Assembly (NCBI GenBank): GCA_007692425.1
Contig: RECG01000023.1
Coordinates: forward strand, 1 to 40,725
Source: Acholeplasmataceae bacterium
Lineage (GTDB): Bacteria > Bacillota_I > Bacilli_A > Acholeplasmatales > Acholeplasmataceae
Length of the DNA: 40,725 bases
Reading direction: 5' to 3'
Below, piece by piece: positions 2,972 to 40,725 of the stretch. The notes below the pieces were generated by a model. It worked only from the letters and a program-made list of their open reading frames with translations, was not told the DNA's origin and did not search any database. Each line of letters begins with the position of its first letter. Within the stretch, counting starts at the first letter, position 1. The position numbers and the translations under genes were made by a program.

Positions 2972-3022
2972 ACATCATCTTCTTTCCGCTTATGATTGGT
3001 GCTGCTCGACACCAGTGTCATT

Positions 3023-4510
3023 TTAAACACTGAACTTTTGTTTCAAATAGTCAACATAGTAATTCGGATTAAACGGCTCCTTTGTCGCAATCAACATCAA
3101 TTCCTTGGGTGTCTTGGAACCGCCATAGACATGAATATGGTCTTTCAGCCATGCATTGATGGCTTTGATGTTATTTTCAGCGATGGCCTGCTCGATGTCG
3201 ACTTCCTTGTTCATGGCCTGATAAATCTGGGCGGCATAGGCGGAGCCGAGCGCGTAGGTTGGAAAATAACCGATTGCCCCGAACGACCAATGGATATCCT
3301 GCAAGACCCCCTCGCGATCATTGGTGGGACGTTTACCAACGTATTGTGACATCAGCTGCTTCCATTTCCGCGGGAGGTCAGCCACTTTCAAGCGACCGTT
3401 GATCATCGCTTTTTCCAATTCATATCGGACCATGACATGCAAGCCATACGTCAGTTCATCCGCTTCAATGCGGATCAAGGATCGTTTGGCCTGATTGATA
3501 AACCGATAAAATTCATCGACTGTAATCCCTTTGAGTTGTTTGGGAAACAGTTCAACCAGTTTCGGGTAATGTAATTGCCAAAACGCGTATGACCGGCCAA
3601 TCATATTCTCATATAGACGGGATTGTGATTCATGCATGCCAAGACTTGATCCGCCGTGGATGTTGGTGTCGTCAAACTTGGGATCGTTTTGCATTTCATA
3701 TAAGGCGTGCCCCATCTCATGAATGGTTGAAAAAATGCTTGACGCCAGATTGTCTTCGTGATAATGCGTGGTGATCCGGGTATCGATGCTCGCGACGCCG
3801 GACGTGAACGGATGCTCGCTTTCTTTGAGAACACCATGATTAAGATCATAACCGAAGACATCCAGAAGATAGCGTGAGAAAGCCTTTTGCTGGTCTTTTG
3901 GAAAAATGCCCTTGGTCAGTTTCCGGCTGAAACGTTCTTTCTTCTCGGTGGCTTCTTTGACAAACGAGACGAGTTCTTCCTTGAGGGTGTTGAAGAAATG
4001 GTCATACTCCTTGATGCCAAAGCCGTCTTCATACATGTCTAACAAGATGTCGTACCCTTTCAGTTCTGGTGTTTCAAGGTATTTGACCAGTTTGCGATTA
4101 AACTCGACGACTTTTTCAAGCGTTGGCAAAAACAGGTTGAAATCGTCTTTGTGTTTCGCTTCTGCCCAGACATGTGTCGATTGTGACACGAGCACCTGGA
4201 AAGCGATATACTCTTCTTTCGGCACCTTCTTGATGATACGCAAGTCTTTGAACATTTGACGGATTTCCGCTTTGAAATCGGCATCAAGTTGATCTTGATT
4301 TTCATAAAGCTTTTCAATCGCTTCAATGTAATCAGGATCGGATTGGAGCTTATAGACCTCTTCTGCCATGACACCGACTTGCTTGGTGCGGTATTCGATG
4401 GATCCTTTCGGCGCTTCGGTCTCCTGGTCCCAACCGACCAACCAGGCATAATAACCATATGCCTTCAAACGACGGCGCATGTCTTCATACGTGTTGATAT
4501 AAGCTTGCAT
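3023..4510 (-). CDS. Carboxypeptidase Taq, M32 family zinc metallopeptidase
   Basis: Cytoplasmic zinc carboxypeptidase that removes C-terminal residues from peptides. The 495-residue length matches the family (about 500). Visible signatures are HPFT (233-236), DTRITTHY (243-250), the zinc site HEMGH (264-268), HESQSR with the third zinc ligand, and the RIEADELTY segment; together they are diagnostic of M32. I chose ATG 4510 (MQAYINTYED) because GAAGGA lies 7 bases upstream; the longer frame to 4525 would begin with GTG inside that ribosome binding site. A weak promoter (TTCACG-N17-TATAGA) lies between this gene and mgtE. No terminator is visible before the methyltransferase, so M32, rlmD and the membrane protein probably form one operon. 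It likely works with PepT and the M20 enzyme in peptide breakdown. Confidence 0.95.
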   Translation of the reverse strand: MQAYINTYEDMRRRLKAYGYYAWLVGWDQETEAPKGSIEYRTKQVGVMAEEVYKLQSDPDYIEAIEKLYENQDQLDADFKAEIRQMFKDLRIIKKVPKEEYIAFQVLVSQSTHVWAEAKHKDDFNLFLPTLEKVVEFNRKLVKYLETPELKGYDILLDMYEDGFGIKEYDHFFNTLKEELVSFVKEATEKKERFSRKLTKGIFPKDQQKAFSRYLLDVFGYDLNHGVLKESEHPFTSGVASIDTRITTHYHEDNLASSIFSTIHEMGHALYEMQNDPKFDDTNIHGGSSLGMHESQSRLYENMIGRSYAFWQLHYPKLVELFPKQLKGITVDEFYRFINQAKRSLIRIEADELTYGLHVMVRYELEKAMINGRLKVADLPRKWKQLMSQYVGKRPTNDREGVLQDIHWSFGAIGYFPTYALGSAYAAQIYQAMNKEVDIEQAIAENNIKAINAWLKDHIHVYGGSKTPKELMLIATKEPFNPNYYVDYLKQKFSV

Positions 4511-7374: not shown

Positions 7375-7965
7375 TCAAGGTGCGTTGATAATGAGCAGGC
7401 ATTGGGTTTCAATCAAATCAACCAAAGCGTTCTCGGTGATGTCCATTTCTTGATTGACATACTGGTAGAGCAACCCTGAAACGATGGCTGCTAGCACGTG
7501 CCTTCGATAGGGTCGTTCGTCTTTGATATGGACGATGCCCTCATTGATACCTAACAGAAAGATGTCCTTGAAGCGCTCGTTCACGCGTTCTTGAAATGCT
7601 TTCATGCTCGTTTGCATACACATCGAGTTCACGGCTGGCATGGCTTCCTGAGGATGATTGAAGATGGCATTGGTGATGTTTTTGGCATCTTTCATGATGG
7701 TGAGCAATCGCCGGATCTGGATATTGAATGCCTCTTTGAAGACATTTGTGCCAAGCGGTTGAAAGACTGTTTCCTCATATTGTCTCAACAGATGCATGAA
7801 TGTTTCTTCAATCAAGGCTTCCTTGCTGGCGAAATGCTCATAGACCGTGCTCTTGCCGATGTCTGCGGCATAGGCGATTTTTGATAAGGTGATCTGTTCA
7901 TAGCTGGCCTGTTCCTTGAGAAAGGCCACTGCGGCATCTAAAATCTTAAGCTTGGTCGTCTGCAT
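7375..7965 (-). CDS. TetR-family repressor of the RND pump
   Basis: The 196-residue DNA-binding repressor has the standard N-terminal three-helix domain (about 1-60; TLSKIAYAADIGKSTVYEHFASKEALI is the helix-turn-helix plus tail region) and a variable ligand-binding C-terminal domain. ATG 7965 is preferred: GGAAGGTGA lies 5 bases upstream, whereas the longer frame begins at a GTG inside that site. It overlaps the end of the pump gene by 20 bases and is therefore translated from the pump message. The perfect inverted repeat at the pump promoter (11373-11388) is the likely operator, so the protein would repress its own operon. The inducing ligand is unknown, probably a pump substrate. Confidence 0.93.
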   Translation of the reverse strand: MQTTKLKILDAAVAFLKEQASYEQITLSKIAYAADIGKSTVYEHFASKEALIEETFMHLLRQYEETVFQPLGTNVFKEAFNIQIRRLLTIMKDAKNITNAIFNHPQEAMPAVNSMCMQTSMKAFQERVNERFKDIFLLGINEGIVHIKDERPYRRHVLAAIVSGLLYQYVNQEMDITENALVDLIETQCLLIINAP

Positions 7966-10900
7966 CTGATTCACCTTCCTTGATGATTTGACGGCGGTTA
8001 ATCAACGCATAGACCGTAGGCACGACCAACAACGTCAGTACGGTGCCGTAGATCAGGCCGCCAATGGCAGTGATGGCCATTGGTTGTAGCAGTTCGGAAC
8101 CTTCGCCATAACCGAATGCCATGGCGATAAGTGCCAGAATGGTGGTCAAAGCCGTCATGAAGATAGGACGCAGACGGGTCTTGCCGGCTTCGACAATGGC
8201 TTCGATCACGGTTTTACCTTGTTCACGGAGCTTGTTGATGTAGTCAATCAGAACAATGCCATTGTTGACGACGATGCCAATCAAGATGATCATGCCCATG
8301 ATAGAGACCAGGCTCAGGAATGAATTGGTGACAAGCAACGCCATCAGTCCTCCGGTAAACGCCAAGGGAATCGTGCCAAGAATGATAAACGGATAGACAA
8401 GCGACTGGAACTGGATGGCCATGACCATGTAGACCAACAGGATGGCGACAAGGGCGGCAAGGACCATTTCTTGGATTGCCGTCATGATTTCTTCGTTTTC
8501 ACCGGTGAATTCAACCAGATAACCCCCACCATGCCGGGTGAAGGACTCGCTGTCAAGATAGGCTTCGACATTGCGGATGACTTCCTGGCTGACCAATGTG
8601 ACGTTTTTGTCTTGGGCAATCTGCCCCGTCACCGTCACATAGCGGTTTGAGCCATCGGTATTGATGGTTGCAAACCCGGTCACACGCGCGACCGAGGTCA
8701 CGCCGGCTTCGGGATTTTCTTTGTCAAACAATGGTGCGAGGCCTGCCAGATAGAGCGCATCAGGACCCACAGGTCCCAACTCCATGACAATCTGGTCATC
8801 AACGATTTTCAAGAAAGGATTGACAATCAACTGGACGGGGTCACCAAAGTTCCAGAACGGTGCGCCTAGCAGGATATTCGGTACATAAATGCTTTCACCG
8901 GTCAATGCCATGTAGTCGTCAATCATCGCCCTGGTTTCAGCATCAAACAGCACGATGCCACCCAGGAAGGTCAGATAATCGCCAAAAATATTAAATTCAA
9001 ATCCGCCACCGAATGTGTCTTGCGGCAAATCGAGACGATAGGTGTTGCCTTCAATCGTGACATCCACACTGCGGACCACGCCAATGGCTTCAAGGTTTTG
9101 ATAAAGCAGACCAAGATTGTTCAAAACATCTTGGCTGGTCAACCCATATGTGATGGCGACATCGCGATTGACCGTGATCTTGACGTTGTCAGGACCTTGG
9201 TTGATACCGTTGTCAGGACGGACGACACCATCGGTCGTCGTCAAAATGTCGGTAAGATCGTTGGCAATGATTTCAAGCGTCTCCAAATCATAACCGCTGA
9301 CTTTGATGGCAATGCCTTGGCTGCCGAACATCGGACCCGTGCTTTGCTGGGTATTCAACCTGACATCAACAATCTGATCGTGGGTCAAGCCAGCAATAAA
9401 CGTCAGGTCAAAACCACGGATCATCCCTTCAATCAGGTCTGCGTTTGCTTGTGTCGAAAGACGTCGATTGCTGACGAGATTGACATTGAAACGAATGTTG
9501 TCTCCGCCCGTCTGAACCATCAGCAAAGCACCAAACATGCCACTTCCGCCAATGCTGGCAGAGACGGTTTCAACATCATCCAAGGCCATCATGGCAACAG
9601 TCAGCGCATCGGTAAATTCCGCCTTGGCACCAAAACTGACATCGTTGGTGGTTTCAATGGTGATGCTGATGGTCCCTTCGTCAGAAGTTGGAATCAAGAT
9701 AAACCCTTTGATATAAACAAGACTGAAAGCGCCGAGCAACAACACCAACACGACTGACAAGGTCAAGGCCTTATGTTTGATGGCAAACAAGACTGATGAT
9801 TCATACCATTTTTTAGCAGTCGTTAGCATGTTGCCATCTGCTTTTCGACTTGATTCGTTCAGATAACGTGATGACATGCTTGGAACAACCGTCAATGCAA
9901 TAATCAAACTGGCGCCAAGCGAATAGGCGATGGTCAATGCCATGCTGATGAACACATCAGCCACCAGACCTTCGATGAACAGGATGGGAACGAAGACGGC
10001 CAAAGTTGTCAATGTCGAGGCCGTGATGGCACCGGCGACTTGTTTGGCGCCGTCAATCGCCGCTTCTATCCTGGTTTTGCCTTCATTGATCATTCTAAAG
10101 ATATTTTCGATGACCACGACCGAATTATCGACAAGCATACCGATCGCCAGCGCTAATCCGCCCATGGAGACCAGATTAAGGCTGACATTGGTGAAATACA
10201 TCAACATGAACGCCGCAATCACCGAAACAGGAATGGCGATGCCGACAATGAGCGTCGGTTTGATATCGCGTAGGAAAACAAAAAGAATGATGATGGCCAA
10301 AAGACCACCGATGATCAGATTGGTCAACACCGAATTGATTGAATCCACGATGAACTCGCCTTGATCCAACAAGACGATATATTCCGCATCGATTTCACTT
10401 TCTTGCGTCACGCGGTCCAAACGGTTCATGATGGCCCTGGTCACTTCCGTGATGGCGACATCCGACTGTTTGGTGAATGAGACTTGAATGCCTTGAATGC
10501 CGTTGATTTTTGAATAAACATTGGTGCTGGCATTGACAAAACGAATCCCGTCATCGACAACCAGGTCCTCCAATGTGATGATGTTGCCGCCTGAAAAGAG
10601 AATCGGCAATGAAGCAATCTCTGAAAGACGACTTGGACGATCACCGAAATATAAGACGCGAATGTCTCCCTCATCAAGGACAACGCCGGCCAAAGCACTG
10701 ACATTTTGTTGTTCAATGATGTCCAAAACGTCTTGATGTGTCAATCCGTGAAGCGCGATTTTCGCATCATCAAGTTTGACTTCAAGTACGATGTCAGCCG
10801 CACCGCCGATGCTGACATCGGCGATACCGGGGATGCTGAGCAGGTCGGTTGTCATGATCTGGTTGATCCACTCAGTGTTTCGAATCAATGCTTCATCATC

Positions 10901-11344
10901 ACTGAGTTCCTCATCATAACTGCGAAACATGGTGACGGTCATGACCGGCAACAAATCTGGTGTGATCCTCAATATGCGGGTGTTTTGCACCCCTGAAGCA
11001 AATGTCGTGTTATTAAGCAGTTCCCGTAATTCGATAATCACGCTATCCATATTGGCGGATTCGGCGAAAGTAATGATTGAAATGGCAAAATTCTCGTTGG
11101 ACATCGAAGTGACCTCGCGGAAATTACCAATCGTCGACACCGCTGATTCAATCTTGCGTGACACTTCGACTTCCAGTTCTTCCGGGCTGGCACCCGGATA
11201 AGGTGTGACCGTGACGACAAAAGGCAGATTGATATCAGGAAACAAGGTCAAAGGAAGTCTGGACACGGAAAAAATGCCCAAGACGATGATGATCAACACA
11301 CCCATCAACACGGTAATGGGTCTTCTAACACTATATTTGCTCAT
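7946..11344 (-). CDS. RND-family efflux transporter (HAE/SwrC-like)
   Basis: Proton-driven exporter of the resistance-nodulation-division superfamily, 1132 residues, with the usual two-fold design: TM1, a large extracellular domain, TM2-6, then TM7, a second large domain and TM8-12. The N-terminus YSVRRPITVLM and the motif GGLALAIGMLVDNSVVVIE in the TM4 region with its conserved aspartate are diagnostic; the second half has IGIVVNNGIVLIDYIN. In Gram-negative bacteria such pumps need a membrane-fusion protein and an outer-membrane channel. Neither is encoded here, as for Bacillus SwrC, which suggests a single-membrane organism. ATG 11344 follows AAGGAG at 6 bases; the longer frame starts with TTG and has no such site. 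It is the first gene of an operon with tetR. Substrate unknown: drugs, detergents or lipopeptides are candidates. Confidence 0.95.
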   Translation of the reverse strand: MSKYSVRRPITVLMGVLIIIVLGIFSVSRLPLTLFPDINLPFVVTVTPYPGASPEELEVEVSRKIESAVSTIGNFREVTSMSNENFAISIITFAESANMDSVIIELRELLNNTTFASGVQNTRILRITPDLLPVMTVTMFRSYDEELSDDEALIRNTEWINQIMTTDLLSIPGIADVSIGGAADIVLEVKLDDAKIALHGLTHQDVLDIIEQQNVSALAGVVLDEGDIRVLYFGDRPSRLSEIASLPILFSGGNIITLEDLVVDDGIRFVNASTNVYSKINGIQGIQVSFTKQSDVAITEVTRAIMNRLDRVTQESEIDAEYIVLLDQGEFIVDSINSVLTNLIIGGLLAIIILFVFLRDIKPTLIVGIAIPVSVIAAFMLMYFTNVSLNLVSMGGLALAIGMLVDNSVVVIENIFRMINEGKTRIEAAIDGAKQVAGAITASTLTTLAVFVPILFIEGLVADVFISMALTIAYSLGASLIIALTVVPSMSSRYLNESSRKADGNMLTTAKKWYESSVLFAIKHKALTLSVVLVLLLGAFSLVYIKGFILIPTSDEGTISITIETTNDVSFGAKAEFTDALTVAMMALDDVETVSASIGGSGMFGALLMVQTGGDNIRFNVNLVSNRRLSTQANADLIEGMIRGFDLTFIAGLTHDQIVDVRLNTQQSTGPMFGSQGIAIKVSGYDLETLEIIANDLTDILTTTDGVVRPDNGINQGPDNVKITVNRDVAITYGLTSQDVLNNLGLLYQNLEAIGVVRSVDVTIEGNTYRLDLPQDTFGGGFEFNIFGDYLTFLGGIVLFDAETRAMIDDYMALTGESIYVPNILLGAPFWNFGDPVQLIVNPFLKIVDDQIVMELGPVGPDALYLAGLAPLFDKENPEAGVTSVARVTGFATINTDGSNRYVTVTGQIAQDKNVTLVSQEVIRNVEAYLDSESFTRHGGGYLVEFTGENEEIMTAIQEMVLAALVAILLVYMVMAIQFQSLVYPFIILGTIPLAFTGGLMALLVTNSFLSLVSIMGMIILIGIVVNNGIVLIDYINKLREQGKTVIEAIVEAGKTRLRPIFMTALTTILALIAMAFGYGEGSELLQPMAITAIGGLIYGTVLTLLVVPTVYALINRRQIIKEGESDADDQA

Positions 11345-11372
11345 AAGATACTCCTTCAATGTAACATAGATC

Positions 11373-30737: not shown

Positions 30738-33362
30738 TTAACGGGGGTTCTTGATGTTGGCGTGAGCGGCCGCCAAACGGGCGATCGGGACACGGAAAGG
30801 TGAACAGGAAACATAAGACAAACCGACATTGTGGCAGAACTCAACCGACATCGGATCGCCGCCATGTTCGCCGCAGATACCCAGTTTGAGATCAGGACGG
30901 GTCTGCTTGCCGAGTTTCACAGCCATATCCATGAGTTTGCCGACACCTTTGATGTCCACATGGGCAAAAGGATCGTTCGGGAAAATCTTCTTCTCATAAT
31001 AGTCTGCCAGGAACTTGCCGGCATCATCACGGCTGAAGCCGAAGGTCATCTGGGTCAGGTCATTCGTGCCAAAACTGAAGAATTCAGCTTCGACAGCCAC
31101 TTCATCGGCCAACAAGGCTGCACGTGGTACTTCAATCATCGTGCCGACGAGATAGTTGAGGTCGACGCCGGCTTCCTTGATGATTGTATCGGCGGTTTCA
31201 ACGACGATGTCCTTGATGTACTTCAGTTCCCTGACTTCACCGACCAACGGAATCATGATTTCCGGAACCACTTTCATGCCATCCTTGGTCACGGCGATGG
31301 CCGCCTCGATGACGGCTCTTGTTTGCATTTTGGCAATTTCCGGATACGTGATGGTCAAACGGACACCACGATGTCCAAGCATCGGATTGGTTTCATGGAG
31401 ATCATCGATGGTCGCTTTCAAGGCTTCATAGCTGAGTTCCATTTCCTTGGCCAAGGCTTCGATATCGGCTGTGGCGGTCGGCAGGAATTCGTGCAATGGC
31501 GGGTCAAGATAACGAATCGTGACAGGAAAACCTTTCATCGCCTTGTAAAGCTTGATAAAGTCTTCTCTTTGCATCGGCAAGAGTTTGGCAAGCGCCTTTT
31601 CTCTTTCTTTCAATGTTTTGGCCACGATCATTTCACGGACTGCAGGAATGCGGTCCGCTTCAAAGAACATATGTTCGGTACGGCACAAACCAATGCCTTG
31701 CGCCCCAAATTCATAAGCGGTGGTGGCATCACGTTCGTTATCTGCGTTGGTGCGGACATCCATGGCGCGATATTTGTCAGCCCAACCCATCAGAACAGCA
31801 AAATCACCGGAAACCGTGGCATCAACCGTCGGAATCCGTTCTCCATAAATCACTCCGGTGGACCCGTCGAGTGAAATCCAGTCGCCTTCTTTGAAGACTT
31901 CGCCATTGACTTCGAACTGTTTCTTGGCTTCCATGACGCGGACACTGCCTGCGCCAGCCACACAGCATGTCCCCATGCCACGTGCGACGACGGCGGCGTG
32001 TGAAGTCATCCCGCCACGTGAGGTGAGAATGCCTGAAGCCACGACCATGCCTTCGATATCTTCCGGGGATGTTTCCTGGCGAACCAGGACGACCGGTTGT
32101 TTATCAGCGGCTTTCATTTCCTTGGCACGTTCAGCTGTAAACGCAATGCGTCCGGTCGCCGCACCTGGTGAGGCGTTAAGACCAGTCGCGATAACGCGCG
32201 CCTTTTTAAGTGCCTGCTTGTCAAACTGGGGATGAAGCAAGGCATCGAGCTGACCCGGTTCGACTTTGAGAATGGCTTCTTTTTCTGTCAAGAGCCCTTC
32301 GCTGACAAGATCGATGGCGATTTTAAGCGCAGCTTGTGCGGTGCGCTTGCCATTACGGGTTTGAAGCATGTAGAGTTTGCCTTTTTCAATGGTGAATTCC
32401 ATGTCTTGCATATCACGATAATGTGCTTCCAATTTTTTGGATAGCGCATCGAATTCTTCATAAAGCGCAAGGTTGTCTTTCTTCAGTTCGGCAATTGGTT
32501 TGGGTGTGCGGATACCGGCGACAACATCTTCACCTTGGGCGTTGAAGAGATATTCGCCATACAGTTCATTGGTACCGTCTGAAGGATTCCGGCTGAATGC
32601 GACACCCGTTCCTGAGTCTTCGCCCATGTTGCCGAACACCATGCCTTGCACATTGACCGCTGTTCCCCATTCATAAGGAATGTGATTCAAGCGACGGTAG
32701 GTGTTGGCGCGTGGGTTGTCCCATGATCTGAAGACGGCGGTAATCGCGCCGATCAATTGTTCTCTGGGATCTTGCGGGAAAGGTTCGCCTTTGAGTTCTT
32801 CGTACTTGACGAGAAACTGTCCGACCAGTTCAATCAAATCATCAGACGTCAAATCGGTATCGGCCGTGATGTTTTTCTTTTCTTTCATGTCTTCAAGCAA
32901 ATGTTCGAAATTCTCCTTGTCGACTTCCATGACGACATCAGCGAACATCTGGATGAATCGACGATAAGAGTCGTAAGCAAAACGCGGATTACCCGTCAGT
33001 TTGGCCAATCCTTTGACAGACTCATTCGTCAAACCAAGGTTCAGGATGGTATCCATCATGCCTGGCATGGAGGCTCTTGAGCCCGAGCGTACCGATACAA
33101 GGAAGGGGTTGCCGGCATCACCAAAGGCTTTGCCTGCCTCCTTTTCAATAACTGCCAAAGCTGTGAAAACCTGCTCGATGATTTCGGGCGCGATTTTCTT
33201 TCCTCGTTTGTAATAGTCGTTGCATGCTTCAGTCGTGACGGTGAAGCCTTGCGGCACCGGCATACCAAGCGAAGTCATTTCCGCCAAGTTTGCACCTTTG
33301 CCGCCAAGAAGGTTCTTCATGGTGGCATTGCCTTCTTTAAACAAATAAACGTACTTTGTCAT
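30738..33362 (-). CDS. ppdK: Pyruvate, phosphate dikinase
   Basis: Cytoplasmic enzyme that interconverts PEP + AMP + PPi and pyruvate + ATP + Pi. The 874-residue length matches bacterial PPDK. Order: N-terminal ATP-grasp domain (KNLLGGKGANLAEM at 16-29), central swivelling phosphohistidine domain with SRGGMTSHAAVV (catalytic His455, with the regulatory-type Thr453 two residues before) and C-terminal PEP-binding barrel with FFSFGTNDLTQM and GICGEHGGDP (catalytic cysteine). It follows pfkA by 44 bases with no terminator between, AAGGAACAGAAG before the ATG, so the two glycolytic enzymes share a message. In a fermenter it probably works in the pyruvate-forming direction, gaining ATP from PPi. 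Confidence 0.98.
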   Translation of the reverse strand: MTKYVYLFKEGNATMKNLLGGKGANLAEMTSLGMPVPQGFTVTTEACNDYYKRGKKIAPEIIEQVFTALAVIEKEAGKAFGDAGNPFLVSVRSGSRASMPGMMDTILNLGLTNESVKGLAKLTGNPRFAYDSYRRFIQMFADVVMEVDKENFEHLLEDMKEKKNITADTDLTSDDLIELVGQFLVKYEELKGEPFPQDPREQLIGAITAVFRSWDNPRANTYRRLNHIPYEWGTAVNVQGMVFGNMGEDSGTGVAFSRNPSDGTNELYGEYLFNAQGEDVVAGIRTPKPIAELKKDNLALYEEFDALSKKLEAHYRDMQDMEFTIEKGKLYMLQTRNGKRTAQAALKIAIDLVSEGLLTEKEAILKVEPGQLDALLHPQFDKQALKKARVIATGLNASPGAATGRIAFTAERAKEMKAADKQPVVLVRQETSPEDIEGMVVASGILTSRGGMTSHAAVVARGMGTCCVAGAGSVRVMEAKKQFEVNGEVFKEGDWISLDGSTGVIYGERIPTVDATVSGDFAVLMGWADKYRAMDVRTNADNERDATTAYEFGAQGIGLCRTEHMFFEADRIPAVREMIVAKTLKEREKALAKLLPMQREDFIKLYKAMKGFPVTIRYLDPPLHEFLPTATADIEALAKEMELSYEALKATIDDLHETNPMLGHRGVRLTITYPEIAKMQTRAVIEAAIAVTKDGMKVVPEIMIPLVGEVRELKYIKDIVVETADTIIKEAGVDLNYLVGTMIEVPRAALLADEVAVEAEFFSFGTNDLTQMTFGFSRDDAGKFLADYYEKKIFPNDPFAHVDIKGVGKLMDMAVKLGKQTRPDLKLGICGEHGGDPMSVEFCHNVGLSYVSCSPFRVPIARLAAAHANIKNPR

Positions 33363-33406
33363 CTTCTGTTCCTTTCTTTATCTATATCAATTTTTTAATA
33401 ACCAGT

Positions 33407-34357
33407 TTAAGAGATTTTCTTGACCAATTTGTCTAACTCGTTACGTGGACGTTTTTGTCCGATCACATTGACAAATGGCAGGTGGATCATCCGTGAATCA
33501 CGCACGCCGACACAGACGCCGTGGATATCGTCGTTGAGAAGTTCCACCGCGTAAGCCCCCATCCTTGAACCCAGGATGCGGTCTTCCGGACAGGGCGATC
33601 CGCCCCTTTGAATATAGCCCAGAACGGTCGCACGTGAGGCGAATCCTGATTTCTCAGTGATTTCCTCGGCCAATTCATAAACATTCAAAATCCGTTCGGT
33701 AATGACGATGATGGAATGTCTTCTTCCTTCCCGGCGATGACGCTTGAGTCTTTCGATGATTTGTTCTTTGTCGATTGGATTCTCAGGTGTGATGATAAAC
33801 TCGGCTCCGCCGCAAATACCGGCATGAAGGGCCAGGTCGCCACAATATCGTCCCATCGTTTCAATGATGCTGCAACGACGGTGTGATTGAGAGGTATCGC
33901 GTAATTTGTCAATGGCATCGACAATCGTTTCAACTGCGGTCTGGAACCCGATGGTGAAATCCGTTCCTGCGATGTCGTTGTCGATGGTGCCTGGGACACC
34001 AATGCATTTGAGACCCAGTCTTGCCAGTTCGGCGGCCCCTTTGTAGGTGCCGTCGCCACCGATGACAATCAAGCCTTCTATCTCGCGTTTTCGTAAGTGT
34101 TTGATGGCCTTTTTACGAACATCTTCATCTAAGAATTCAGGGACGCGCGCAGTGCCAATGAATGTGCCACCTCTGGAGAGCATGCCAGAAACACTTTGAT
34201 GATTGAGCGGAATCATGACATCGTCAATCATGCCGCGAAAACCATCCTTGATCCCAAAAACCTCATGTCCATAAACATTGGCGGTTCTTACAACAGCACG
34301 GATGGCGGCATTCATGCCGGGCGCATCGCCACCGGATGTCAAAACAGCAATTTTCAT
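33407..34357 (-). CDS. pfkA: 6-phosphofructokinase, ATP-dependent type
   Basis: Catalyses fructose 6-phosphate to fructose 1,6-bisphosphate. The 316-residue length is that of bacterial PfkA. The N-terminus TSGGDAPGMN, the GGDGTYKGA block (100-108, Gly103 typical of ATP users) and PGTIDND (122-128, Gly where PPi enzymes have Lys) mark it as the ATP-type. Allosteric-site residues typical of PfkA (for example RRGGSP-like RGGSPCPEDRILGSRMG) are present. The ATG at 34357 is preferred over the preceding TTG (34360), with GGAGA about 8 bases upstream. Divergent from the PPi-type enzyme across 180 bases. Confidence 0.96.
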   Translation of the reverse strand: MKIAVLTSGGDAPGMNAAIRAVVRTANVYGHEVFGIKDGFRGMIDDVMIPLNHQSVSGMLSRGGTFIGTARVPEFLDEDVRKKAIKHLRKREIEGLIVIGGDGTYKGAAELARLGLKCIGVPGTIDNDIAGTDFTIGFQTAVETIVDAIDKLRDTSQSHRRCSIIETMGRYCGDLALHAGICGGAEFIITPENPIDKEQIIERLKRHRREGRRHSIIVITERILNVYELAEEITEKSGFASRATVLGYIQRGGSPCPEDRILGSRMGAYAVELLNDDIHGVCVGVRDSRMIHLPFVNVIGQKRPRNELDKLVKKIS

Positions 34358-34400
34358 CAACTGATTCTCCCTCGCATCAATAAAAAATCACAACATCATT

Positions 34401-34409
34401 ATTATAACA
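34401..34409 (-). promoter_or_regulatory. Extended -10 promoter of pfkA-ppdK
   Basis: Minus strand TGT-TATAAT, about 45 bases before the pfkA start. The -35 is weak. Confidence 0.65.
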
Positions 34410-34455
34410 CAAGCCGGGTTCAAAATATAGATTTTTGATGTGGTTTTTCACGATG

Positions 34456-34484
34456 ATGAAAACGGTTTTTCGCATGGTTTTCAT
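34456..34484. promoter_or_regulatory. Inverted repeat between divergent phosphofructokinase genes
   Basis: ATGAAAAC (34456-34463) and GTTTTCAT (34477-34484) are exact inverse copies with 13 bases between. The repeat lies upstream of both promoters and could be a shared operator, for example for a sugar-responsive regulator. No family-specific consensus is recognised. Confidence 0.4.
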
Positions 34485-34503
34485 ATCATTTACACCGCTT
34501 TTG

Positions 34504-34512
34504 TGTTAAAAT
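34504..34512 (+). promoter_or_regulatory. Extended -10 promoter of the PPi-type phosphofructokinase
   Basis: TGT-TAAAAT, 30 bases before the start codon. No clear -35. Confidence 0.5.
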
Positions 34513-34542
34513 GATATCAAATCGCAAGAAAATGGTGAGAGT

Positions 34543-35799
34543 ATGAAAGATTTAATAGGCGTCGCACTACTAGGACAATCTGGTGGTCCGACCAGCGTCA
34601 TCAATGCCAGTGCGGCAGGTGTCTTCATCGAAGCGCTCAAACAGGAAAACATCACAGCCGTCTATGGTGCCGTCCATGGCATCAAAGGTATTTTAAACGA
34701 GGATTTTTATGATATCGGACAAGAAGATTTGGAAGAGCTCAAACTACTGCGTAACACCCCTTCTTCGGCCATCGGCAGCGTCCGTTACAAACTCAAGGAT
34801 CCCAAACAAGACCCAAGCGAATATGAACGTTTGCTGGAAGTGTTTAAAAAATATAATATCCGTTATTTCTTCTATAACGGCGGGAACGACTCGATGGATA
34901 CCTGCAACAAGATCAGCAAGTTCTTCAAGAAGGCCGGTTATGACTGCAATGTCATCGGTGTGCCCAAGACAATCGACAACGACCTTTATGGCACCGATCA
35001 TTCGCCGGGCTATGGCAGTGCCGCCAAATATGTCGCCACCACTTTCATGGAACTTTATCATGACGCGACTGTTTATGACACACCGATGGTCACGATTATT
35101 GAAGTCATGGGTAGAAACGCCGGCTGGCTGACGGCCGCTTCCGCGCTTGCCCAGGTCAAAGGACAAGGTCCTGATTTGATTTTTTTACCGGAAATCCCCT
35201 TTGACATCGACAAGTTCTTTGAGCAAGTCAAAACCATGCTGGCCGAAAAGGGCAAGGTGATTGTCGCTGTCAGCGAAGGCATCAAGACCACAGAGGGCAA
35301 GTATATCGCCACCGCTTTTTTGGATTTGTACCGGGATGTCCGGAAAGATGCCTTCGGTCATGTCCAATTGGGTGGAACCGCCCAGGTGCTGGCCGATGAG
35401 GTTGCCAAGCGCACCAAGGCCAAAGTCAGGGCGATCGAATTCAGTTTGTTACAACGTTGTGCGGCGCATCTGGCATCGAAAGTGGATGTCAACGAGGCTT
35501 ACAATGCCGGCCGCAAGGCCGTGCTTGCCGCGGTCAAGGGATCAACTGACAAGATGGTCGGCTTCAAACGCGTCTCAAACGATCCCTACAAGATCAAGTA
35601 TGCGCTTTTGCCGCTCAAGCTGACTGCCAATACCGAGCAAAAGGTGCCAATCGAATGGATTTTACCGGATGGAAAAGGCATGACCCAGGACTTTATCGAT
35701 TATGCATTGCCTTTGATCCAAGGTGATGACAAGGCAAAGCTGGAAGACGGACTACCACGCTTCGCACGTCTCAAGAAAATCCGCGTTCCGAAAAAATAA
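34543..35799 (+). CDS. pfp: Pyrophosphate-dependent 6-phosphofructokinase
   Basis: Reversible phosphorylation of fructose 6-phosphate with PPi instead of ATP. The 418-residue protein has the N-terminal LLGQSGGPTSVINAS, a YNGGNDSMDT block (111-120), where GGND replaces the GGDG of ATP enzymes, and PKTIDND (141-147), where Lys142 replaces Gly; both changes are the known switches to PPi use. It is of the long PPi-type clade found in clostridia, Mollicutes and spirochaetes. It stands alone with its own promoter and terminator. With PPDK nearby, PPi is spent or gained at two steps of glycolysis. Confidence 0.93.
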   Translation: MKDLIGVALLGQSGGPTSVINASAAGVFIEALKQENITAVYGAVHGIKGILNEDFYDIGQEDLEELKLLRNTPSSAIGSVRYKLKDPKQDPSEYERLLEVFKKYNIRYFFYNGGNDSMDTCNKISKFFKKAGYDCNVIGVPKTIDNDLYGTDHSPGYGSAAKYVATTFMELYHDATVYDTPMVTIIEVMGRNAGWLTAASALAQVKGQGPDLIFLPEIPFDIDKFFEQVKTMLAEKGKVIVAVSEGIKTTEGKYIATAFLDLYRDVRKDAFGHVQLGGTAQVLADEVAKRTKAKVRAIEFSLLQRCAAHLASKVDVNEAYNAGRKAVLAAVKGSTDKMVGFKRVSNDPYKIKYALLPLKLTANTEQKVPIEWILPDGKGMTQDFIDYALPLIQGDDKAKLEDGLPRFARLKKIRVPKK

Positions 35800-36652: not shown

Positions 36653-37318
36653 ATGGAACATCGTCGTTCTGAATTCGATCAATTGCATCTCGAAGGACGC
36701 ATCTGGATGCTTGGTGCGCTTGGCCTGTTTTTATCCGTTCCTTTGCTTTCCAGCTTGATCACAGGTGTCTGGCCTGTGCCGGCGATGTTTCTGGCCGGTT
36801 TTGTCGCCACGGCGGTCATCTTCTGGCCGGTCACGACGATTGAAGTGTTCACCTTTACGCCGATGCTTGGGGTCGGTGGCAGTTATCTAGGCTTTGTCAC
36901 AGGCAATCTGACAAGTTTGAAGGTGCCTGCGGCACTTAATGCCCAGGATGCACTGAAAGTCGAGAAGGGTACACCTGAAGGCGATGTGATCGCCACCATC
37001 GCGATTGCGGCAAGCAGCATCGTCACCTCTTTAATCATTTTGGTGGGTGCGCTCTTGATTATTCCCTTGACGCCTTTGTTGGAATCCGAAGCGCTCAAGC
37101 CTGCGTTTGACAACATCATTCCCGCCTTATTCGGCGCGCTTGGTATTGTCTATATTTCCAAACGTTTCATGGTGGCCCTCGTGCCCCTGATCTTCATGTC
37201 GGTGTTCTTCATTGTCGTGCCTGGCAGCGGTGACCTGGTTGGCATCATGGTGCCGGTCGGCGTCGTCATTTCACTGTCAATGGCACGGATTCTTTACAAG
37301 AAGGGGATGATCCAATAA
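36653..37318 (+). CDS. Membrane partner of DUF5058 protein, function unknown
   Basis: 221-residue protein with a short charged N-terminus (MEHRRSEFDQLHLEGR) and about six membrane helices. Features: FTPMLGVGGSYLGFVTGNLTSLKVPAA (about 70-97), a Gly-rich loop that looks functional, and a cytoplasmic KVEKGTPEGD segment. ATG 36653 follows the DUF5058 stop by one base with GGGGGTG upstream; the open frame extends further left but overlaps the DUF5058 gene without a start site. Its TAA overlaps the ATG of the M20 gene (TAATG), so the three genes are coupled. No characterised homologue recognised. Confidence 0.8.
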   Translation: MEHRRSEFDQLHLEGRIWMLGALGLFLSVPLLSSLITGVWPVPAMFLAGFVATAVIFWPVTTIEVFTFTPMLGVGGSYLGFVTGNLTSLKVPAALNAQDALKVEKGTPEGDVIATIAIAASSIVTSLIILVGALLIIPLTPLLESEALKPAFDNIIPALFGALGIVYISKRFMVALVPLIFMSVFFIVVPGSGDLVGIMVPVGVVISLSMARILYKKGMIQ

Positions 37319-38748
37319 TGTGGTGGCCATATGTACTGGCTGGCTTTGTTGGTCTGATGATTCTCATCATCATCATTCGAACCTTGACATTCAAAGCCAA
37401 AGACTTTCCGGAAATGCGGAAGAAACATGAATTTGACAAGGTGCGAGCGATTGAATCGTTGTCCCAGATGATTCAATTCAAGACGGTGTCCAATATCGAT
37501 GAAAGCAAAGTTGATAAAAAAGCGTTTAAGGCGTTCAGACAATATTTGCGTGAGCGTTATCCGAAAATCAACGAGGTGGCGACTTATAGCGAGCATGAGG
37601 CTGGTGTCTTGTTCCATATCAAGGGCATGTCTGATGAACAGCCGTCCGTGTTGATGTCGCATTATGATGTCGTGCCTGTGACCGAAGGTTGGCAGGAAGA
37701 TCCCTTCAGCGGCCGGGTTGATGAGCAAACCATTTATGGACGTGGCACATTGGATACCAAGAACAGTCTTTGTGTCATCATGGAAGCCGTCGAATATGCC
37801 TTGAACCAAGGCAAGACGTTTAAAAATGACCTCTATCTGGCTTTTGGTGGCGACGAAGAAATCAGCGGTCCTTCGGCACCTGCTATCCGTGATCATTTGC
37901 ACAAACAAGGCATCAAGCCCGCCTTTGTCTTAGACGAGGGTGGCGCCATCATCAGCAAAATGTTTCCTGGTGTCAAACAAAAAGCGGCTGTCATCGGCAT
38001 CTCGGAAAAAGGGTATATGGATGTCAGTCTGACCGCCCGGTCCAGAGGTGGACACGCCTCAAGCCCGCCTAAGGAAACCGCTATTACCGAACTCGCGAAA
38101 GCGGTCAGGCGCTTGAATAATCATCGCGCCTTCAAGATGAAACTCACCGCACCGGTCAAGGCATTGTTCAAGACCTTGCCGCCTCATTCGAAATCATTTG
38201 GTGTGAAGATGTTGTTTGCCAACTTGTGGTTGTTCATGCCGGTGGTGAAGATGATGGCGAAAAAGAGCGGGGGCGAATTCGCATCGATGTTCAAGACGAC
38301 CCAGGCTTTCACGGTCGCCAGTGGCAGCGATGCCTATAATGTGCTTCCTTCCGAAGCTTCGCTTGGTGTCAATTACCGGTTGCGTCCATTCGAATCTTCA
38401 GATACTGTCCTTAAGCGTATCCGCAAGATTATCAAGAATCCGAATATCGAAGTCAAGCCCTTGAAGATTTCAGAAGCGACATCTGTCAGTTTGATTGATG
38501 AGCAATTTGGTATTCTGGCAAAAGCCATCAAGCAGACCTGGCCGGATGTGCTGACGACACCTTATCTGATGGTGGCGACGACGGACTCGAGACATTATCA
38601 TGCTATTTCTGATCATGTCTACAAGTTCTCACCAATGGATGTGTCAAGGGACGACTTGCGTAAGATTCATGGTTTCGATGAAGACATTACCATTGACAAC
38701 GTCATCAATGGTGTCAACTTCTACTTGAATCTGATTGAGCAGTTGTAA
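37318..38748 (+). CDS. Membrane-anchored M20 family dipeptidase/carboxypeptidase
   Basis: 476-residue zinc peptidase of the M20A/carboxypeptidase S-like group. One N-terminal membrane helix (about 3-23, YVLAGFVGLMILIIIIRTL) anchors it. Active-site blocks are complete: SHYDVVPV (metal His, catalytic Asp), GRGTLDTKNS (bridging Asp), FGGDEEISG (catalytic Glu pair), HASSPP in the dimer domain and TTDSRHYHAIS with the last metal His. Such enzymes cleave dipeptides or N-acyl amino acids. The membrane anchor plus two upstream membrane proteins suggest hydrolysis coupled to uptake. Last gene of the operon; strong terminator follows. Confidence 0.93.
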   Translation: MWWPYVLAGFVGLMILIIIIRTLTFKAKDFPEMRKKHEFDKVRAIESLSQMIQFKTVSNIDESKVDKKAFKAFRQYLRERYPKINEVATYSEHEAGVLFHIKGMSDEQPSVLMSHYDVVPVTEGWQEDPFSGRVDEQTIYGRGTLDTKNSLCVIMEAVEYALNQGKTFKNDLYLAFGGDEEISGPSAPAIRDHLHKQGIKPAFVLDEGGAIISKMFPGVKQKAAVIGISEKGYMDVSLTARSRGGHASSPPKETAITELAKAVRRLNNHRAFKMKLTAPVKALFKTLPPHSKSFGVKMLFANLWLFMPVVKMMAKKSGGEFASMFKTTQAFTVASGSDAYNVLPSEASLGVNYRLRPFESSDTVLKRIRKIIKNPNIEVKPLKISEATSVSLIDEQFGILAKAIKQTWPDVLTTPYLMVATTDSRHYHAISDHVYKFSPMDVSRDDLRKIHGFDEDITIDNVINGVNFYLNLIEQL

Positions 38749-38814: not shown

Positions 38815-38841
38815 GAAAAAAGGCCACCCGAAGGTGACCTT
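38815..38841 (-). terminator. Terminator of the repeat-protein gene
   Basis: Minus strand: AAGGTCACC (38833-38841), tetraloop TTCG, GGTGGCCTT (38820-38828) with one G-T wobble, then TTTT. The C-TTCG-G loop is an especially stable tetraloop. It lies about 20 bases past the stop at 38863. Confidence 0.92.
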
Positions 38842-38862: not shown

Positions 38863-40725
38863 CTAGTTGATTGTCTTCAAGAAGTCAATCAGTGCCTGAC
38901 GCTTGATGTGGTTGTCGCGATCATCATCAACAAAGTCTGAATTGGCAAGCAGAGGTTCAAGTAATGGTTCGCCCTTGATAATGTCACTGATGATGTAGTA
39001 CATAATGGTGTTGTCATTGTCGAGAAGATCGTCGATTTGCTGATCTGTCAGCGCTTCAATATCTTCAATTGCAATGTCATCAAGATCATCAATCGTGTTG
39101 ACGTTAAATACAACCATCGCATCGACCAAGCCATTCATTTCAGTAATCTTAATGTCTGAGATAAGTGCTGGTTCAGGCAAGCCGGCATCGTAGTTGACTG
39201 CGGCCACATCAGTGACAACAGCATCTTCAAATGGTAGTCCGGCGTCATTGATGCCGATTGAAATCATGCGGTAAATGATGAGTGACTCGGTGTCAAGCAG
39301 ATCGCTTAACAGAGTAGGACCAAATTCGGTCGGATCCAAACCAGCGACGGCATCTGCAATCGTTGTTGTATCCGGATCATTAATACCGGGTACATCACCA
39401 AGAACCTTGAGTGCTTCAACCAAATTCACGATTTCTTCATGTTCAAGATCGTAGTCGTTGCGATAGGCAGTGGTTGGAATACCATAATCATGTCCATCGC
39501 CACGTGCATCATCACTGACGGCTGCGGTAAGCGGCACGGACAGGACGTGAACAATGATTGGTGAATAGCCTTCCGGTTCAGTGTTGCCAAGTGCGACGAT
39601 CTGGTCAAGCTTCGCAAAGGTGATGGCATTGGTGGCGACTGAGCCGGCGCCATCTGGTTCGATGCCGAGAATCTCAAGTGCATCGAGCAGATAATCGATT
39701 TCAGAACGCTTCAGATCTTTCTTCTCGACCAGTTCGGTGAAGCTTTCATCCGGAATGTTGTCGAGGTTTTCAATGATGGCGGTTGAAATCATGCGGTTCA
39801 AGATGATGGAGTCATCCGGGAAGGCCTGAAGTGTTGCTACACTGAAGGTGCTTTCGTCGAACTCGATGATGGCGATTGGAACATCCTCGACATCTGTAAT
39901 CGGTGCGATGACAAACGGTGCAGCAAGTATCTCAAGCACACTGATCATCTTCGTGATTTCTGATGGCAGCAGGTTGTTTTCATCATCTTCATCAATATAA
40001 GCTGTCAACGGAATACGTTCGACGTCTTCATCGGAAAGCATCTTGACAATCTCATCAGAAATGAGTTTGGTGATAATGAGTGAATCAACATCCGAATCAA
40101 GCGATTGAACCTGGCCGACTGTGACTTCCAGACTGATTTCGGACACTACCTCATCAGGATCGTTGTTCGCAAGGATGTAGAGTGCCTTGACCATTTCGCC
40201 AAGTTCGGTGTCGCTCAGTTGCTCGTTGGCCGGGTCGCCGTCCACATAGGCTGCGGCGGGCACCACGTTGCCGGCTTCAAGGATGACATCAATGATGGCG
40301 TCGGATACCACGCGGCGGATAATCAGCGACGCAGTGTCTGTCAACAACTCATCGACCTGGCCGACTGTGATGGCATCAAGTTCGATGGTGCTGATTTCCT
40401 GGTTGGCGTTGCCACCTGCCAGGATGTATAGCGCCTTGATCATTTCTTCAACTTCGGCTGCGGTCAATTGACCGGTAATCGGATCCTTGGCGGCAACCGG
40501 AACAACACCATCATTGTCTTCAATGGCTTCAATAATCGCATCGGAGATCAGTTTCTGGATGATGAATGAATCCGGATAGACATCTGTAAACAGGTCATCG
40601 ACCTGACCAACGGTGACCGCTTCGACATCAATATCGGAAACGGGATCCGTTGGAGCGGCGGATAGGATGACGATCGCATCAATCATGGCGTCGAATTCGG
40701 TATCCGTCAGACGTTCTGTTCCAAG
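38863..40725 (-). CDS. Large acidic tandem-repeat protein, C-terminal part (runs off the window)
   Basis: The frame is open from its stop at 38863 to the window edge, at least 620 residues, and its start lies outside. No known family. It consists of repeats of about 80-93 residues, each with two conserved parts. The first is a short hydrophobic core of the form SLIIxKLISDAII, often preceded by ITVGQVDxLLxD. The second is a helix of the form SExxEMxKALYILA. Counting from the methionine at 40686, first cores lie at 39, 119, 201, 292, 374, 467 and 559; second cores at 76, 160, 242, 328, 417 and 515. Between them are variable linkers rich in Asp and Glu with VPxxAY. The total charge is strongly negative. 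The three N-most complete units are very alike; the last three have diverged and the protein ends in a shortened copy (ALIDFLKTIN). No LPxTG or membrane anchor is at the C-terminus. A secreted or surface role fits the acidity and repeats but is not shown. Confidence 0.88.
   Translation of the reverse strand, partial: LGTERLTDTEFDAMIDAIVILSAAPTDPVSDIDVEAVTVGQVDDLFTDVYPDSFIIQKLISDAIIEAIEDNDGVVPVAAKDPITGQLTAAEVEEMIKALYILAGGNANQEISTIELDAITVGQVDELLTDTASLIIRRVVSDAIIDVILEAGNVVPAAAYVDGDPANEQLSDTELGEMVKALYILANNDPDEVVSEISLEVTVGQVQSLDSDVDSLIITKLISDEIVKMLSDEDVERIPLTAYIDEDDENNLLPSEITKMISVLEILAAPFVIAPITDVEDVPIAIIEFDESTFSVATLQAFPDDSIILNRMISTAIIENLDNIPDESFTELVEKKDLKRSEIDYLLDALEILGIEPDGAGSVATNAITFAKLDQIVALGNTEPEGYSPIIVHVLSVPLTAAVSDDARGDGHDYGIPTTAYRNDYDLEHEEIVNLVEALKVLGDVPGINDPDTTTIADAVAGLDPTEFGPTLLSDLLDTESLIIYRMISIGINDAGLPFEDAVVTDVAAVNYDAGLPEPALISDIKITEMNGLVDAMVVFNVNTIDDLDDIAIEDIEALTDQQIDDLLDNDNTIMYYIISDIIKGEPLLEPLLANSDFVDDDRDNHIKRQALIDFLKTIN
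38950..40725 (-). repeat. Tandem coding repeats of about 240-280 bases
   Basis: The repeats of the acidic protein are visible in DNA as recurring stretches such as the ones around 40520-40572, 40290-40332 and 40040-40086 (SLIIxKLISD-coding) and 40420-40465, 40165-40210 (EMxKALYILA-coding). Period about 240, 246, 273, 246, 279 and 276 bases. The units are diverged enough to be protein repeats under selection, not a recent slippage array. Confidence 0.85.

Follow-up and report, generated by a model that had tools for sequence, protein, structure and literature searches.

Organization of the locus

The DNA analysed here, called the window, comprises all of contig C29 (40,725 bases) of an Acholeplasmataceae genome of 1.45 Mb that was assembled in 29 contigs and is 97.8% complete. 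At one end of the window the minus strand carries the last 620 codons of an open reading frame that is still open where the contig ends, no stop codon lying upstream (Table 1). As the first-pass annotation of the sequence had remarked, the encoded protein segment is acidic (D+E 21%, K+R 4.4%, pI 4.05); it is also free of cysteine. A profile HMM locates seven units in it, at residues 32-106, 114-189, 200-268, 292-355, 364-444, 465-542 and 555-612. The two-motif tandem units described earlier, seven or more in number, are therefore real, and a partial one precedes them, but the length first given, 80-93 residues, was a little too narrow, as the start-to-start spacings are 82, 86, 92, 72, 101 and 90 residues. 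The units nearest the contig edge are indeed the more alike: units 1-3 are about 0.5 identical among themselves, versus 0.28-0.36 for units 4-7 compared with the other units of the window. A profile made from units 1-3 by themselves picks up unit 4 (5e-5), but units 5-7 only weakly (0.008-0.05). The terminator of the gene is a strong one, the stretch that contains it folds at z = -3.0, and a relative of the putative M20-type peptidase occupies the equivalent place in related genomes.

Table 1. Features at the end of the window (residues are numbered in the 620-residue segment; G028 is a genome of the same family)
Feature	Position	Strand	Remarks
Convergent neighbour, 476 aa, read as M20-type peptidase	37318..38748	+	name by inspection
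Intrinsic terminator of giant gene: 9-bp stem, UUCG loop, T run	38820..38841	-	soon after stop codon
Giant gene, C-terminal 620 codons + stop	38863..40725	-	ORF, open at contig end
Unit 7 + C-terminal cap half-unit (...DFVDDDRDNHIKRQALIDFLKTIN)	38866..39090	-	relatives end similarly; HMM
Unit 6, ~residues 451-545	39091..39375	-	nearest is G028 unit 2984-3064 (54%)
Unit 5, ~residues 361-450	39376..39645	-	nearest is G028 unit 2886-2970 (55%)
Unit 4, ~residues 274-360	39646..39906	-	nearest is G028 unit 2808-2875 (58%)
Unit 3, residues 195-273	39907..40143	-	helices 203-210, 216-230, 254-267; central variable array
Unit 2, residues 112-194	40144..40392	-	helices 121-130, 134-150, 172-185; central variable array
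Unit 1, residues 30-111	40393..40638	-	helices 39-48, 54-70, 89-102; central variable array
Partial unit 0, last helix LTDTEFDAMIDAIVIL	40639..40725	-	cut by contig end; HMM match residues 4-22; model helix 8-21

The rest of the gene

Where is the remainder of this gene? A relative's first 1,900 residues, used as query against the source genome (G000), located contig C20, the last 13.3 kb of which is a 4,446-codon open frame that extends from an ATG to the contig end (L058:949-14286:+). A ribosome-binding site, AGAAAGGTGG, lies directly upstream of the ATG, and a dnaE-like gene precedes the frame. On C29, the giant is followed by the peptidase gene, by genes for two membrane proteins and two phosphofructokinases, and by one that resembles pyruvate phosphate dikinase (these names, like dnaE, were given by inspection). 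In G036 and similar relatives a single intact giant lies between these same flanking genes, in identical order. Because gene order is conserved on both sides, and because of the homology, we joined C20 and C29 as one gene, across a gap that no overlap of the contig ends spans. By homology, C20 stops upstream of a tandem array and C29 starts inside it, and we infer that similar central repeats broke the assembly between them, so that the combined length is a minimum. These comparisons support a single gene that would encode at least 5,066 amino acids, about 1% of the genome. G001, which belongs to the same genus, has an N-terminal part of 4,167 aa together with a separate internal fragment, and relatives with intact genes range from about 1,600 to about 3,900 residues. 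We note that the pyruvate-phosphate-dikinase-like gene stands beside two different phosphofructokinase-like genes that are divergently oriented (window positions 30738-35799), and that relatives keep this block close to their giant.

A predicted CvpA-like membrane anchor

A signal peptide had been expected at the start of the protein; the neighbouring sequence reveals instead a four-helix, CvpA-like membrane domain. Four hydrophobic segments lie within the first 210 residues. In the five sequences examined by hydropathy and charge, loops 1-2 and 3-4 are positive (in loop 3-4 of the source genome's protein, 13 K+R versus 4 D+E), and the flank that follows TM4 is acidic, being rich in D+E. Under the positive-inside rule, these loop charges would put everything past residue 210 outside the cell. 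The extracellular position of the acidic repeat region, which the first-pass annotation had also proposed, is thus predicted from that one rule, as applied to full-length relatives. It also fits the absence of cysteine from all 4,226 + 620 (4,846) residues, as against a cysteine content of 0.46% in the 25 other genes of the window (P about e^-22).

How closely is the anchor related to CvpA, the Colicin V production protein (PF02674)? Four of nine N-termini from the family match the Pfam Colicin_V model, the best at 1.7e-4, and near full-span matches are found in G046 (2.8e-5) and L087 (1.3e-3). In profile-profile comparison with hhalign, bona fide CvpA is matched over the first motif with 84% probability, and controls with 0.3%. 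Four transmembrane helices with loops 1-2 and 3-4 in the cytoplasm are predicted, as in PF02674, and the alignments show conservation of the motifs G-F-x-R-G, between TM1 and TM2, and R-x-x-G-G-x-x-G-x-x-R-G, before TM4, both of which are shared with CvpA. All of these Pfam scores, including 19.2 bits in the source genome and 24.6 in the best relative, lie, however, below the curated cut-off of 29.3 bits, and for this reason we call the anchor CvpA-like rather than file it as a member. The giant further differs from CvpA in being 10-30 times longer, owing to the repeat region.

Two other proteins invite comparison. The transmembrane part of MarP (Rv3671c) of Mycobacterium is CvpA-like. The plan of four N-terminal transmembrane helices that carry a large, extracytoplasmic C-terminal domain, as predicted for the giant, is common to both. 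The passengers differ, that of MarP being a chymotrypsin-fold protease with a disulphide, and that of the giant, thousands of residues of helical repeat without cysteine or a recognisable enzyme domain. In MarP the C-terminal domain that follows the four helices is periplasmic (PMC4992679). CvpA family protein 0669 of Mycoplasma bovis, the product of a 1,398-bp gene listed as non-essential (PMC4045577), is likewise encoded by a mollicute CvpA-family gene that is longer than usual, but it has only about 466 residues. Two further sets of CvpA-related genes were seen. A second, weakly CvpA-like family of about 595-622 residues lies beside the giant in several genomes of the family (e.g. G012:C1:687061, G028:C36:60148 and G017:C4:36452), and in genomes of f16, another family of the class (L099-L101), CvpA domains that score above the Pfam cut-off are found on ORFs of about 780-820 codons, possible intermediates between a classic CvpA and a giant.

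Predicted fold of the repeat

The first-pass annotation had suggested a stack of helical units. AlphaFold2, given residues 1-285 of the window protein and 22 homologous three-unit stretches, predicts such an array, in which each of the three units has three helices and these occupy corresponding positions (mean pLDDT 83.5, pTM 0.79). For the anchor plus the first 500 residues of the ectodomain, modelled from only five sequences, pLDDT is 42, and continuity of the solenoid near the membrane is unsupported. The stacking of all-helical units in register in the model recalls the alpha-solenoids (HEAT, ARM, TPR). The giant differs from these in having three helices per ~82 residues plus an extended acidic loop, and no solved HEAT, ARM or TPR protein was significantly matched by Foldseek in the PDB, nor did any Pfam repeat model match.

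Searches for other relatives of the fold were also negative. Foldseek against the PDB returned 28 matches, none at E<=0.001 (best E 0.81, TM 0.14), and against viral models it gave no significant match to the repeat fold. A profile search of PDB sequences produced a single match, with E 0.48; in full-length searches of Pfam and NCBIfam the repeat region gave no more than chance-level matches; plasmids yielded no match. The earlier statement that the repeat belongs to no known domain family therefore holds for Pfam, NCBIfam, PDB sequences, PDB folds and viral folds. The open-access literature on CvpA, giant proteins and Acholeplasma/Mollicutes contained no description of the protein that we could find. 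Neither Pfam nor NCBIfam nor the PDB has a name for the giant, and no open-access paper on it was found.

It had been proposed that the many aspartates of the repeats bind metal. The loop before the third helix has an EF-hand-like spacing, with a nearly invariant Glu at position 12, and one might imagine a calcium-loaded protein in which loops of EF-hand or dockerin type stiffen the rod. The exact calcium signature PS00018 does occur seven times in G028 and three times in L061, and L082 has weak, sub-threshold EF-hand matches. Ligand positions 1, 3 and 5 are unconserved, however, and PS00018 is missing from the window and from almost every relative; the seven matches in G028 derive mostly from the copying of a single loop and are not independent. 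No EF-hand Pfam match at E<=1 is present in the window, and the best relative reaches 16 of 25 bits. Since only two relatives, and not the window, carry the signature, we rejected metal binding as a general property of the repeats, and a calcium-loaded rod appears to us very unlikely.

Distribution among related genomes

The anchor is present in 41 of the 79 genomes of the family (Acholeplasmataceae, Peloplasma aerotolerans included), mostly as a single copy, and wherever the contig is long enough the ORF that carries it is nearly always very long. It occurs in none of the 26 genomes of genus g8, whose size (0.5-0.9 Mb) leads us to take them for phytoplasmas. At the level of the order 70 of 113 genomes have it, and at that of the class 92 of 296, in 86 of which it lies on an ORF of at least 1,000 residues. 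A unit profile, built from Acholeplasmataceae and its order only, finds 9-26 units in most long anchored proteins of f3, f12, f16, f23 and f24, and nothing in 90 shuffled control sequences. Anchor and repeat thus recur together in other families of the class.

The giants of f9 and f19 share the anchor and have extensions that are just as long, but the unit profile matches nothing in these, and we therefore do not claim the same repeat for them. The proteins concerned (L085 and L086 in f9, L077-L080 in f19) carry extensions of 2,400-4,800 residues on CvpA-like anchors, and MurG is present in many of these genomes; possibly they constitute a second, diverged family of anchored giants. In G018 and G034, fragments of the giant gene adjoin genes for predicted lipoproteins of about 2,450 and 1,620 aa with lipobox-like starts (L046:581-7945:- and L043:4665-9530:+).

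Growth of the gene and sequence constraint

The similarity of the near-edge units had been taken to mean that the gene grows from its 5' side. This reading does not survive comparison with relatives, since the near-edge units lie mid-gene and the C-terminal units are conserved. Units 4-6 of the window are each nearest to a distinct C-terminal unit of G028, with order kept (Table 1), and units 1-3 belong to a tandem array of varying number in the middle of a gene of more than 5,000 aa; growth is therefore internal. The central array of G028 displays duplication steps of about 80 and about 162 residues. In the source genome, duplicated blocks of about 103 residues lie between residues 600 and 1000, and a block of 746-769 residues is present in three copies at about residues 1500-4040.

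Between the source genome and G001, dN is 0.50 and dS 2.7, the latter saturated, over 3,988 codons. The comparison of dN with a saturated dS suggests that the giant gene is under constraint. Three interrupted giants were encountered. In the complete MO-XQ genome (L060, ~10969) codon 326 is an in-frame stop, beyond which the frame goes on for 2,324 codons; in G035 (L039, N-terminal region) an in-frame TAG falls inside the membrane anchor; and in G019 (L036, ~10042-10079) the frame changes near the last quarter of the gene. These could be sequencing errors, losses in culture or real null alleles. If real, they argue against essentiality.

What might the giant do?

The reading that we favour, and hold to be reasonably probable, is that of a giant, single-copy, membrane-anchored surface protein with a helical-repeat solenoid and a structural or contact role. 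The four N-terminal CvpA-like helices would insert in the membrane with their lysine- and arginine-rich loops inside, and insertion would thread the remaining chain outward, more than 4,800 acidic, cysteine-free residues. The ectodomain would consist of three-helix units of about 80 residues, degenerate near the membrane and nearly regular in mid-chain, that may stack as a long alpha-solenoid closed by the conserved C-terminal cap. Tandem duplication in the interior, by blocks of 80, 160, 100 and 760 residues, would change the length of the rod while anchor and tip are retained, so that length could evolve between fixed ends. The resulting anionic rod or brush may scaffold or space the surface of a wall-less cell, or mediate contact. 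Sequence, repeats, orthology, synteny and distribution are thus shown by the analysis, and topology and fold are predicted. The rod shape of the whole chain and its function we infer: a role as surface scaffold, spacer or contact protein is suggested by a gene that is single-copy, fixed in position, conserved at both ends and absent from host-bound, phytoplasma-like genomes, and by the predicted exposure of an acidic solenoid, and a mechanical and interfacial role is the most likely.

These genomes are small, yet about 1% of one of them is spent on one gene, which relatives keep, usually in single copy and in the same place. A gene of this size, kept so well where genomes are streamlined, should have an important function, and the giant makes possible a concrete test of how wall-less bacteria organise their surface. 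Assemblies of the group can break inside one giant gene, and such proteins have therefore probably often escaped notice or been annotated wrongly, as fragments.

Might the rod instead be an adhesin, whose main task is to attach the cell to the surfaces of minerals, polymers or partner cells, with a length that varies so as to tune reach or evade phage? A giant, repetitive protein with predicted surface exposure, whose units vary in copy number by lineage, would suit such a role, as would its absence from the 26 phytoplasma-sized genomes, which are presumably not free-living. Variable adhesins, however, usually form multi-gene families, and a protein that is mostly single copy, with position and C-terminal units conserved across genera, looks more like housekeeping; Pfam and NCBIfam reveal no known binding domain, and we regard adhesion as rather unlikely. 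A cytoplasmic repeat region, which would make the giant an internal scaffold, would accord with the lack of a classical signal peptide, and alpha-solenoids are common in the cytoplasm. The charges of loops 1-2 and 3-4 and of the flank after TM4 in the five sequences, together with the cysteine-free region, speak against this inverted topology, which seems to us quite improbable.

A further thought is that the giant forms a protein coat, a proteinaceous exoskeleton in place of the missing cell wall. MurG is absent from 62 of 86 carriers of the giant versus 104 of 210 non-carriers among the 296 genomes of the class (Fisher p 5e-4, a test that ignores kinship), and every carrier in f1, f5, f11, f16, f23 and f24 is without it. 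But the other 24 carriers do have MurG, among them all eight in f9 and both in f12, and the 104 non-carriers just mentioned lack giant and MurG alike. The giant is therefore neither needed for wall-less life nor restricted to it, and a simple rule of wall replacement, by which it would be confined to peptidoglycan-free organisms, was rejected on account of those 24. A pure wall substitute is unlikely, and we consider a coat of this kind doubtful. The proposal of an undescribed superfamily of giant anchored helical-repeat proteins, acting as an extracellular scaffold that aids surface integrity in wall-less bacteria of the class and partly replaces the wall, likewise receives little weight from us. 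We prefer, then, the anchored surface protein with a structural or contact role.

The source genome itself has no MurG match, and its window carries, at 7946-11359 on the minus strand, a gene of 1,137 aa that by inspection resembles an RND-type efflux transporter.
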